Part shown: positions 33,435 through 37,407 of the stretch, piece by piece
Layout of the letters: every line of letters begins with the position of its first letter
How positions within the stretch are numbered: the stretch's first letter is position 1
Source: Clostridiales bacterium
Lineage (GTDB): Bacteria; Bacillota; Clostridia; Oscillospirales; Acutalibacteraceae
Length of the DNA: 64,000 nucleotides
Direction of reading: 5' to 3'
Assembly: GCA_022801595.1 (NCBI GenBank)
Contig: JAAWSO010000002.1
Coordinates: 124,001 to 188,000, forward strand
Translations under genes and position numbers: made by a program
Notes under the pieces: model-generated
Database searches by the model: none
What the model was told of the DNA's origin: nothing
The model's input: the letters and a program-made list of their open reading frames with translations, nothing else

Positions 33435-33890
33435 TTATGCAGTTTCATGTTTGGAGTTGACTTTGGCGGGTGGGTTAAGCTCCAAATCCCGTTTTACCAG
33501 GTCTGCCAAGGTCACTCGGTTGACCACTTCTTCCACCGCTTCTTTCAATTCCTGCCATAGTTCCACGGTGGCACATCGAGGAGCGCGGTGACAATCATTT
33601 TCCAGGAAGTCCAAGCACGGGACAGGGGAAAGGGTTCCTTCCATCAGGCGCAGAACCATGCCAACGGTGTAATATTCTGGAGGGTGGGAAAGCTGATATC
33701 CCCCATTTGCGCCCCGTGCGCTTTTGACATAACCGGCTTTACAAAGCTGGTTGATAATTTGTTCCAAGTACTTGTCGGATATTTCTTGGCGCACGGAAAT
33801 ACTTTTGATACTGATGTATTCCTCTTTTCCGTTGACTGCCAGATCCAACAGAAGCCGGAGGGCATATCGCCCTTTTGTGGAAACTCGCAT
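33435..33890 (-). CDS. Rrf2 family transcriptional regulator, IscR-like
   Basis: MRVSTKGRYALRLLLDLAVNGKEEYISIKSISVRQEISDKYLEQIINQLCKAGYVKSARGANGGYQLSHPP; three clustered Cys (PCLDFLENDCHRAPRC). Confidence 0.9.
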   Translation of the reverse strand: MRVSTKGRYALRLLLDLAVNGKEEYISIKSISVRQEISDKYLEQIINQLCKAGYVKSARGANGGYQLSHPPEYYTVGMVLRLMEGTLSPVPCLDFLENDCHRAPRCATVELWQELKEAVEEVVNRVTLADLVKRDLELNPPAKVNSKHETA

Positions 33891-34132: not shown

Positions 34133-34161
34133 TTGTATCCTAACACAACATATAGTAAAAT
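34133..34161 (+). promoter_or_regulatory. Candidate sigma-A promoter of the hyd maturase operon
   Basis: TTGTAT-17 nt-TAAAAT. Confidence 0.6.
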
Positions 34162-34167
34162 AAAAAT

Positions 34168-34395
34168 AATTATCCACCTCTTATGGAAAAAGGGCCGGAA
34201 AATGGCTTCCTGCACCAACCAGACTGGATAAGGATTCCAAAGCAAATCGTGCTGACTTCGCGAGGGTGCGGCGTTATCCCAACCGGCAAGGCGATTAGAA
34301 TATTACATAGATCACGCATCCTTACCCCAAAGGAAATTTTGTTGTATTCTATTCCCTCTGCCCCGCGGTTTTGGACAGAGGATTTTTTGTTTTTG
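34168..34395 (+). ncRNA. Candidate structured leader RNA upstream of the hydrogenase maturation operon
   Basis: ~220 nt between promoter and terminator-like hairpin; TAAGGAT (34229-34235) can pair with ATCCTTA (34318-34324) while overlapping GGATAA (34226-34231) can pair with TTATCC (34274-34279). Confidence 0.4.
34356..34395 (+). terminator. Terminator-like hairpin upstream of the TM1266-like gene
   Basis: CCTCTGcCC...GGaCAGAGG followed by ATTTTTTG. Confidence 0.6.
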
Positions 34396-34447
34396 GAAAA
34401 CCTTTTCAAGCAACTTCAAAATTTTTATGGAAAAAGGAGTTTTTGTT

Positions 34448-34711
34448 ATGAGTAATACAACCGATCACCGTATCGCCCTCATCGGGATTATCGCGGAAAG
34501 TCGAGATCAAACGGATGCCATCAACACCTTGTTATCGGAATATGGAGACTACATTGTGGGCAGAATGGGTATCCCTTATCGGGATCGGAAGCTGAATATT
34601 ATCAGCATTGTGATGGACGCCCCCAACGATCAAATCAGCGCTTTGTCCGGTAAGCTTGGTATGCTGGACGGGATTAGCGTCAAGACCGTGTATTCAAAAG
34701 TCGAGGGATAA
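34448..34711 (+). CDS. TM1266-family iron-only hydrogenase system putative regulator
   Basis: HRIALIGIIAESRDQTDAINTLLSEYGDYIVGRMGIPYRDRKLNIISIVMDAPNDQISALSGKLGMLDGISVKTVYSK; directly upstream of hydG. Confidence 0.88.
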   Translation: MSNTTDHRIALIGIIAESRDQTDAINTLLSEYGDYIVGRMGIPYRDRKLNIISIVMDAPNDQISALSGKLGMLDGISVKTVYSKVEG

Positions 34712-34757
34712 GCTAGTCTGATTTTTACAACAAAATAAGGAAGAGGGATGTGTGTCT

Positions 34758-36176
34758 ATGTATAATGTCAAGTCAAAAGTAGCTGCCGAATTTATTGATG
34801 ACAATGAAATTTTAGAAACCTTGGAATATGCCAAACAAAATAAAAGCAACCGGGAATTGATTTCTGGGCTGTTGGAACGGGCCAAGGACTGCAAAGGGCT
34901 AACGCACCGGGAAGCTGCTGTTCTTCTGGAATGCGACCAGGAAGACTTGAATCGTCAGATGGAGGCCCTGGCTAAAGAGATCAAGCAAAAATTTTACGGA
35001 AACCGGATTGTTATGTTCGCCCCTTTGTATCTCTCGAACTATTGCATCAATGGCTGTACTTATTGCCCGTACCATTTTAAAAATAAAAACATTTGCCGCA
35101 AGAAGCTGACTCAGGAGGAAATCCGCCAGGAGGTGATTGCCCTCCAGGATATGGGCCATAAGCGTCTGGCCTTGGAAGCGGGAGAAGATCCAGTTCATAA
35201 CCCGATTGAATACATTTTGGAGAGCATTGAAACCATTTATAGTATCAAACATAAAAATGGAGCGATCCGCCGGGTAAACGTAAATATTGCCGCCACCACC
35301 GTGGAGAATTATCGGAAACTGCACGACGCTGGGATCGGCACCTATATCTTGTTCCAGGAAACCTATCATAAGGAAACCTATGAAAAACTGCATCCTACCG
35401 GCCCAAAACACAATTATGCCTACCATACGGAGGCTATGGACCGGGCTATGGAAGCGGGCATCGACGATGTGGGGATCGGCGTACTGTTCGGCCTCAATCT
35501 TTACCGCTACGATTTCGTCGGCCTGCTCATGCACGCGGAGCATTTGGAAGCCGCAATGGGAGTGGGCCCTCACACCATCAGCGTACCTCGGATCCGTCCT
35601 GCGGATGACATCAATCCTGAGGACTTTCCCGATGCGATCAGTGATGATTTGTTTGCGAAAATTGTTGCTGTCCTGCGCATTGCTGTGCCATATACCGGCA
35701 TGATTATTTCTACTCGGGAATCCCAAAAGTCCCGGGAGCGGGTGTTGGATTTAGGCGTTTCCCAGATCAGCGGTGGTTCCCGAACCAGCGTCGGCGGCTA
35801 TGTGGACGAGGAGCCGGAGGAGGAGAATTCCGCCCAGTTTGATTTGAGCGATACCAGGACTTTGGACGAGATTGTCAATTGGCTGCTGACTTTGGGGTAT
35901 ATCCCTAGCTTCTGTACCGCCTGTTATCGGGAAGGGCGTACCGGCGACCGGTTTATGCAATTGGTGAAATCCGGGCAGATTGCCAACTGCTGCCAACCCA
36001 ATGCCTTGATGACCCTCAAGGAATATTTAGAGGACTATGCCTCCGAGGATACCCGAAGCAAGGGGGAGGCGGTGATCGCGGAGGAGATGGAGCGTGTGCC
36101 GAATCCGAAAGTTAAGGAAATCGCCACCAGGTATTTGCAGGAAATGAAGGAAGGGAAACGGGATTTCCGTTTCTAA
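34758..36176 (+). CDS. hydG: [FeFe]-hydrogenase H-cluster radical SAM maturase HydG
   Basis: Radical SAM CX3CX2C (NYCINGCTYCPYHFKNKNICRKKL), C-terminal FCTACYREGRTGDRFM...ANCCQPNALMTLKEYLEDYAS. Confidence 0.95.
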   Translation: MYNVKSKVAAEFIDDNEILETLEYAKQNKSNRELISGLLERAKDCKGLTHREAAVLLECDQEDLNRQMEALAKEIKQKFYGNRIVMFAPLYLSNYCINGCTYCPYHFKNKNICRKKLTQEEIRQEVIALQDMGHKRLALEAGEDPVHNPIEYILESIETIYSIKHKNGAIRRVNVNIAATTVENYRKLHDAGIGTYILFQETYHKETYEKLHPTGPKHNYAYHTEAMDRAMEAGIDDVGIGVLFGLNLYRYDFVGLLMHAEHLEAAMGVGPHTISVPRIRPADDINPEDFPDAISDDLFAKIVAVLRIAVPYTGMIISTRESQKSRERVLDLGVSQISGGSRTSVGGYVDEEPEEENSAQFDLSDTRTLDEIVNWLLTLGYIPSFCTACYREGRTGDRFMQLVKSGQIANCCQPNALMTLKEYLEDYASEDTRSKGEAVIAEEMERVPNPKVKEIATRYLQEMKEGKRDFRF

Positions 36177-36207: not shown

Positions 36208-37407
36208 ATGGAATTGCAACAGACCCCTGGCGCCAATCGGCTGCATATTGGAATTTTTGGCCGGCGAAACAGCGGGAAATCCTCGCTGATCAATGCCATC
36301 ACCCAACAGGAGATCGCATTGGTCAGCCAGGTGGCTGGCACCACAACGGATCCAGTTTATAAGGCTATGGAAATTCCAGGCATTGGTCCTTGTATGCTGA
36401 TTGATACCGCGGGATTTGACGACGAGGGGGATTTGGGCGCCATGCGGGTGGAGAAAACCCGGGCGGCTCTGGCTAAAACAGATGTGGCGATTCTGGTGTT
36501 TTCTCAGCTCGACCTGAGCCGGGAAGCGGAGTGGGTTGCCGCCCTGCGCCAAAAGAAAACCCCGATTTTGGCTGTGATCAGTCAACGGGACGTGCGGACG
36601 GAAGCAGAGATTGTAGCTTTGCAGCAGGCGGTGCGGGAACACTTTTCCCTGGAGCCTCTGTTGGTAAGCGCCAAAGAAGGCGCTGGGATTTCCCAAATCA
36701 AAGATGAAATTCTAAGGGCGATGCCGGAAGATTTTGAAATGGCCAGTATCACCGGCCATTTGGTGTCGCCGCACGATGTGGTTTTGCTGGTAATGCCCCA
36801 AGATATCCAAGCCCCCAAAGGCCGTCTGATCTTGCCGCAAGTCCAGACCATCCGGGATTTGCTGGATCATCAATGCGTGGTGATGAGCGCCACAGCGGAT
36901 CAGTTGGAAACGGCTTTGGCTGCCCTGGAAAAGCCGCCCAGCTTGATTATTACCGATTCCCAGGTATTTCCTTTTGTGTTTGAGCGCAAACCAGAGGAAA
37001 GCCGGCTGACGTCCTTTTCCATTCTGCTGGCTGCTTATAAAGGGGACTTATCCGCTTTTGTGACAGGGGCCAAGGCGATTGACACCCTAACCGAACAGTC
37101 CCGGGTATTGATTGCGGAAGCCTGTACCCATGCGCCGCTGAGTGAAGATATTGGGCGGGTAAAAATTCCTGCCATGCTGCGCAAACGGTTTGGTTCAGGC
37201 TTACAGGTGGATTTGGTTAGTGGAGCGGATTTTCCGCAAGATGTTTCCTCCTACGACCTGATTATCCATTGCGGAGCCTGTATGTTCAACCGTAAACATG
37301 TGCTGTCCCGCGTGGAGCAAGCCAAACAGCAAGGGACGCCAATTTGCAATTACGGCGTTGTCATTGCTAAGTTGACTGGGATTTTAGATCATGTTTTCTT
37401 AGGTTAG
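36208..37407 (+). CDS. hydF: [FeFe]-hydrogenase H-cluster maturation GTPase HydF
   Basis: HIGIFGRRNSGKSSLINAITQQEIALVSQVAGTTTDPVYKAMEI...IHCGACMFNRKHVLSR. Confidence 0.95.
   Translation: MELQQTPGANRLHIGIFGRRNSGKSSLINAITQQEIALVSQVAGTTTDPVYKAMEIPGIGPCMLIDTAGFDDEGDLGAMRVEKTRAALAKTDVAILVFSQLDLSREAEWVAALRQKKTPILAVISQRDVRTEAEIVALQQAVREHFSLEPLLVSAKEGAGISQIKDEILRAMPEDFEMASITGHLVSPHDVVLLVMPQDIQAPKGRLILPQVQTIRDLLDHQCVVMSATADQLETALAALEKPPSLIITDSQVFPFVFERKPEESRLTSFSILLAAYKGDLSAFVTGAKAIDTLTEQSRVLIAEACTHAPLSEDIGRVKIPAMLRKRFGSGLQVDLVSGADFPQDVSSYDLIIHCGACMFNRKHVLSRVEQAKQQGTPICNYGVVIAKLTGILDHVFLG

Follow-up and report, generated by a model that had tools for sequence, protein, structure and literature searches.

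The leader upstream of the TM1266-like gene, hydG, and hydF in the window (the whole 64,000-nt stretch of DNA analyzed here) is very probably a transcription attenuator belonging to a previously uncatalogued RNA class. It has a conserved structure, mutually exclusive pairings, a terminator, and a genomic linkage, and as judged from its sequence, it probably decides whether the hydrogenase-assembly genes are transcribed. The preliminary description had read this region as a cis-regulatory leader with mutually exclusive pairings and a terminal terminator, a reading for which conservation, covariation, and genomic context provide strong support. The element appears to represent a new class of attenuator and is a candidate riboswitch. 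As little is known about the control of H-cluster assembly, a conserved RNA switch before these genes would provide a direct handle on it. The coordinates of the features are listed in Table 1.

Table 1. Features of the leader and its neighboring genes (window coordinates).
Feature	Position	Strand	Basis
Divergent Rrf2-family regulator gene	33435-33890	-	adjoins leader
Putative sigma-A promoter, TTGTAT-17-TAAAAT	34133..34161	+	sequence; -10 position kept in genus relatives G082 and G264
5' accessory hairpin P0, TTATCCA 34170-34176 : TGGATAA 34225-34231	34170..34231	+	MFE fold; genus only
Conserved core (putative sensor), P1-P3 hairpin	34242..34298	+	covariance models R1 and R2
P1 5' strand AATCG, pairs with CGATT 34292-34296	34245..34249	+	sequence; covariation
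Near-invariant CUGA, internal loop	34252..34255	+	alignments A2 and A3
P3, GGG 34264-34266 : CCC 34278-34280	34264..34280	+	alignment A3; covariation
Near-invariant AAGGCGA, core 3' strand, common to P1 and predicted antiterminator	34288..34294	+	alignments; antiterminator folds
Predicted antiterminator 5' strand, GGC + GATTAGAATA	34290..34302	+	complementary to 34345-34354 and 34360-34362
Predicted antiterminator 3' strand, TATTCTATTC ... GCC, overlaps terminator 5' arm	34345..34362	+	complementarity; folding
Intrinsic terminator, CCTCTG/CAGAGG + T6	34355..34388	+	sequence
TM1266-like gene, NikR-C/ACT-like putative regulator	34448..34711	+	PF21699 112.6 bits; TIGR03959; fold match 2nzc
hydG	34752..36176	+	Pfam Radical_SAM + BATS; 82-92% identity to genus hydG relatives
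hydF	36208..37407	+	PF18133, PF18128, PF01926

The boundaries and the gene order given in the preliminary description were reproduced. The putative promoter elements TTGTAT (34133-34138) and TAAAAT (34156-34161) were found with a 17-nt spacer, as were the terminator arms CCTCTG (34355-34360) and CAGAGG (34376-34381) and the T6 run (34383-34388). Profile matches identified the downstream genes as TM1266-like (PF21699; TIGR03959), hydG, and hydF. The GC content of the non-coding leader (34168-34388) was 46.6%, compared with 28.9% just upstream and 27.1% just downstream. The promoter is a weak match to the consensus (8 of 12 bases) and was not listed by the promoter scan, for which the threshold was 9 of 12; its -10 position aligned with TAGAAT and TATAAT in two relatives from the same genus (G082 and G264). 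A simple terminator scan missed the terminator because its loop is longer than 8 nt. The folding energy of the whole leader was not unusual (z -0.98), and global folding energy was rejected as evidence because it was not significant; the case for a regulatory leader rests on comparison and not on folding energy. Two known regulatory RNAs were detected elsewhere in the window, namely an AdoCbl-II riboswitch (RF01689; 14933-15010, minus strand) and an S10-Clostridia ribosomal leader (RF03136; 55430-55506, plus strand).

Comparison of the upstream regions of related loci for covariation uncovered a conserved, covarying core, a compact RNA of approximately 50 nt located upstream of TM1266/hydE/hydG/hydF operons. 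Its consensus reads AUCGUNCUGA - P2 - GA - GGG - UNNGU - CCC - GA - P2' - GAAGGCGA, in which the near-invariant internal loop is formed by CUGA and GAAGG, and most copies carry a UNNGU-type loop. The P3 loop of the window copy is enlarged (11 nt versus the usual 5 nt). When the 2.2 Mb genome of the window was scanned with the covariance model R1, which was built without the window, 34242-34298 was the top match (25 bits, E 0.005); model R2, which includes the window copy, scored the core at 37.2 bits (E 5e-8). A hairpin of different sequence occupied the position of P0 in three relatives.

The structure was assessed using two alignments. A2 consisted of 12 copies aligned by MAFFT without a model and with the window excluded; P1 (UCG:CGA), P2, and P3 were formed in 92% of its cells, and 12 double changes were observed compared with 3.1 in shuffled alignments (0 of 500 shuffles as high). 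A3 consisted of 53 copies fitted to the model and thus leans toward the structure, which A2 does not; it showed 73 double changes in P1-P3 compared with 17.8 (sd 4.4) in shuffled alignments (0 of 500), and 93.4% of its cells were paired compared with 35-46% in slid controls. Among the copies, P1 was found as UCG:CGA, UUG:CAA, AUG:CAU, CCG:CGG, and ACG:CGU. The length of P2 differed by 0-4 nt among the copies, which argues against a coding role of the core.

The core was present upstream of TM1266 in all three other genus members that have TM1266, with TM1266 identities down to 51%. A pattern search of the hydG loci of other species retrieved it from Herbinix, Acetobacterium bakii, Acetobacterium wieringae, Propionispira arboris, a strain of Erysipelotrichaceae, and several MAGs. 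Its range covers Clostridia, Negativicutes, and other Bacillota. Gene-blind R1 scans of whole genomes gave matches in 14 of 399 phylum genomes and 27 of 300 family genomes; these counts are lower bounds, as G082 did not pass the strict filter and other TM1266 genes are preceded by weak variants. According to tblastn and ORF reading, most R1 matches lay directly before TM1266, and others preceded hydE (L124, L150, L159, and L201), hydG (L108), or an ABC operon of the type found after TM1266 elsewhere (L135 and L204). The copy at L134 (G390) was set aside as a probable false match lacking a hyd gene, TM1266, and a matching terminator, and a DNA match in G224 was read as chance because hyd genes are absent there.

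HydF was encoded in 12 of the 15 true motif carriers outside the family set. The three genomes without it (G364, G708, and G709; 98-100% complete) contained operons composed of the motif, TM1266, and an SsuA/NMT1-like ABC transporter (L209:4952-7539, L207:2886-6494, and L206:3451-7061, respectively). These operons continued with a HydE-like radical SAM protein in G708 and G709, and the G709 protein scored 193 bits against the HydE model, below the cut-off of 254.6. The signal is thus not strictly tied to hydrogenase, and TM1266 may have a role beyond it. Through the leader, hydrogenase maturation is connected with an SsuA/NMT1-like importer that is so far unexplored, and also, where HydF is missing, with a radical SAM enzyme resembling HydE.

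An intrinsic terminator followed the core in 53 of 54 copies, at a very variable spacing. The core motif AAGGCR, which is part of P1, is complementary to YGCCUU of the terminator 5' arm and loop, and 38 of the 53 copies carried GCC in the terminator 5' arm or loop, complementary to the core AAGGC. The pairing score between the core 3' strand and the terminator 5' arm averaged 13.4, compared with 10.8 for shuffled arms (sd 0.3, maximum 11.9). The segment from AAGGC to GCC folded as a hairpin closed by AAGGC:GCC in 31 of 37 copies (mean z -2.5), and the corresponding segment of the window gave a z of -2.68 against dinucleotide shuffles, with AAGGCGATTAGAATATTACA paired with TTGTTGTATTCTATTCCC. 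Compensation was observed in L156 and L161, where the core reads AAGCCGAGG and its partner reads UUUUGGCU. When terminator arms were exchanged between copies, the pairing score was only slightly lower and the difference was not significant (56 of 500 swaps were as good), because the antiterminator pairing is near-invariant.

As P1 and the antiterminator use the same bases, they are mutually exclusive, and the actual switch is predicted to lie between P1 (34245-34249 : 34292-34296) and the antiterminator (34290-34302 : 34345-34362). The preliminary description had instead proposed that GGATAAGGAT (34226-34235) pairs with either TTATCC (34274-34279) or ATCCTTA (34318-34324). All three sequences are present, and the named pairings were rejected because relatives do not conserve them. 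TGGATAA is instead predicted to pair with TTATCCA at the 5' end of the leader (Table 1), and TTATCC overlaps the 3' arm of the conserved stem P3.

At the sequence level, the leader thus combines an intrinsic terminator before the first gene with a competing antiterminator, the class-neutral features of an attenuator. It also has two features of riboswitches, a covarying aptamer-like RNA in 5' leaders and an expression platform exclusive with the core. In the proposed mechanism, RNA polymerase would start near 34168, and the P1-P2-P3 hairpin would act as the sensor. When stabilized by an effector, P1 (AATCG:CGATT) would hold AAGGCGA, allowing the terminator to form and stopping transcription before TM1266-hydG-hydF. 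Without the effector, AAGGCGA and the next bases would pair with the sequence overlapping the terminator 5' arm, and the resulting antiterminator would permit transcription of the operon. For the window alone, the antiterminator fold was favored over the core plus terminator (-57.9 versus -47.6 kcal/mol), so that a substantial contribution of the effector or kinetic control would be needed. We infer from feedback logic that binding turns the switch OFF, because this RNA is found at the head of ABC importers as well; negative feedback from a single compound on both makers and importers would be the simplest common logic.

The effector may belong to the metabolism of the H-cluster (HydE/HydG) or of iron, as a small molecule or an ion; that the RNA binds it directly, and not through a protein, has in our estimate about an even chance. 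A fuller version of this reading is more tentative and falls somewhat short of even odds: a riboswitch would sense an H-cluster assembly intermediate or building block (or a precursor of the iron/cysteine type) and turn off the maturases together with the linked importers. In most species it would do so through transcription, and in others perhaps by masking the ribosome-binding site in front of hydG. We favor a small ligand or ion that binds the RNA directly, and binding by TM1266 is a serious rival. The leader predicts either that a ligand exists or that TM1266 binds RNA. In the literature searched, TM1266, which is annotated as a putative regulator, was hardly mentioned, and no description of its mode of action was found.

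In the rival reading, TM1266, alone or together with a ligand, would bind the P1-P3 hairpin and so control its own operon and, in some species, act in trans on an ABC operon, much as PyrR or HutP do. TM1266 was encoded in all 27 motif-bearing family genomes compared with 146 of 300 overall and in 14 of the 15 other true carriers (41 of 42 motif-bearing genomes together), and its link to the motif persisted in the three genomes without HydF. Where the motif heads no TM1266 operon (the hydE copy of G606 and the ABC copies of G670 and G717), TM1266 was encoded elsewhere in the genome. Such co-occurrence is nevertheless expected from the usual location of TM1266 inside the regulated operon alone, and TM1266 was not found in G701, where the motif precedes hydE-hydF-hydG, a weak counterexample given that this genome is 89% complete. 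Protein binding would also suit the core, which is a small single hairpin whose internal loop is conserved. TM1266 has a stand-alone, sensor-like NikR regulatory-domain/ACT-like fold and lacks a DNA-binding domain, so that a direct ligand is plausible, as is contact between TM1266 and the RNA. RNA binding by this protein family is, to our knowledge, without precedent, which counts against a protein-dependent attenuator; we regard such an attenuator as possible but less likely than not.

The remaining explanations are improbable. Termination would release an RNA of approximately 220 nt, which might act mainly in trans as an independent small RNA; the copies, however, have the same orientation as the few related operons that they directly precede, the conserved antiterminator complementarity serves control in cis, and the distance from core to terminator varies widely, making this role improbable. 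Control at the DNA level only, for example by the divergent Rrf2 regulator with the leader being incidental, would fit the presence of a divergent Rrf2 gene in the window and in G191, whereas in G082 and G264, where the RNA is conserved, none was found next to the operon; together with the covariation at the RNA level, this makes exclusive DNA-level control still less probable, and control at both levels may act. Least probable of all is translation-coupled attenuation by a leader peptide or a T-box. The attenuator geometry and an ATG-started ORF (34183-34455) that spans the leader would agree with it, yet this ORF crosses the core, where copy lengths differ by non-multiples of three. No conserved short leader ORF was found, the length changes of the core not being divisible by three, and no T-box match to the leader was obtained at the Rfam gathering score or at E<=10.

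The preliminary description had recognized no SAM, B12, TPP, FMN, lysine, c-di-GMP, THF, or T-box signature in the leader. In the Rfam 15 scan, no match at the gathering score was found over the element in the window leader and 12 related loci, and relaxed scans gave chance matches only. No description of such a leader was found in the literature searched, to which a 2017 paper on 224 candidate structured RNAs did not belong, and the surveys of new bacterial RNAs searched did not mention hydrogenase genes in their main text. The leader thus appears as a new candidate regulatory RNA, widespread in anaerobic bacteria and with testable predictions, and cultured strains, among them Acetobacterium wieringae and Propionispira arboris, are suitable for testing the switch.

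PyrR-binding attenuators consist of a sensor hairpin, an antiterminator, and a terminator in series, with a purine-rich internal loop. The present leader shares this arrangement and the purine-rich loop with the PyrR family (RF00515) and differs in the genes controlled. A relationship was rejected because the scores were 18.7-29.7 bits against a cut-off of 54 and the alignment of the core was inconsistent; these sub-threshold matches were driven by the generic terminator. The leader also resembles orphan riboswitch candidates such as the thiS motif, which is now the HMP-PP riboswitch (PMC6478431), in being a compact conserved hairpin before cofactor-assembly genes and importers, and those with terminator platforms in having a downstream intrinsic terminator that competes with the conserved core pairing. 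Unlike the HMP-PP riboswitch, it has another sequence, structure, and set of genes, and is a candidate only. The TM1266 family (TIGR03959/PF21699, "iron-only hydrogenase system putative regulator"), which supplies the first gene of the controlled operon, is a suspected regulator and is a protein, not an RNA.

Weak matches selected by the covariance model itself were located just before hydG at L072:382-458, L073:3948-3998, L106:3953-4000, L113:2064-2107, and L118:3947-3990, and these copies end with AAAGGA or GAAGGA directly before the hydG start. The purine run after the hairpin is possibly the ribosome-binding site of hydG, which would make these copies a translational version of the element.

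An unusual mix of hydrogenase maturases and nitrogenase-like proteins was found at L166:1-8552 and L167:3430-10898, where the motif is the first element of the operon and TM1266 the last. The genes between them are hydE, a NifH-like gene, two nitrogenase-component-1-like genes, a FecB-type ABC transporter, and hydF; the copies in G155 and G031 show this arrangement. The raiA RNA (RF03072) was observed near the hydG region of two Acetobacterium species (L062:7142-7345 and L095:7040-7242); like the leader, it is clostridial and occurs near hyd loci, and unlike the leader, it is a separate, much larger RNA located downstream.
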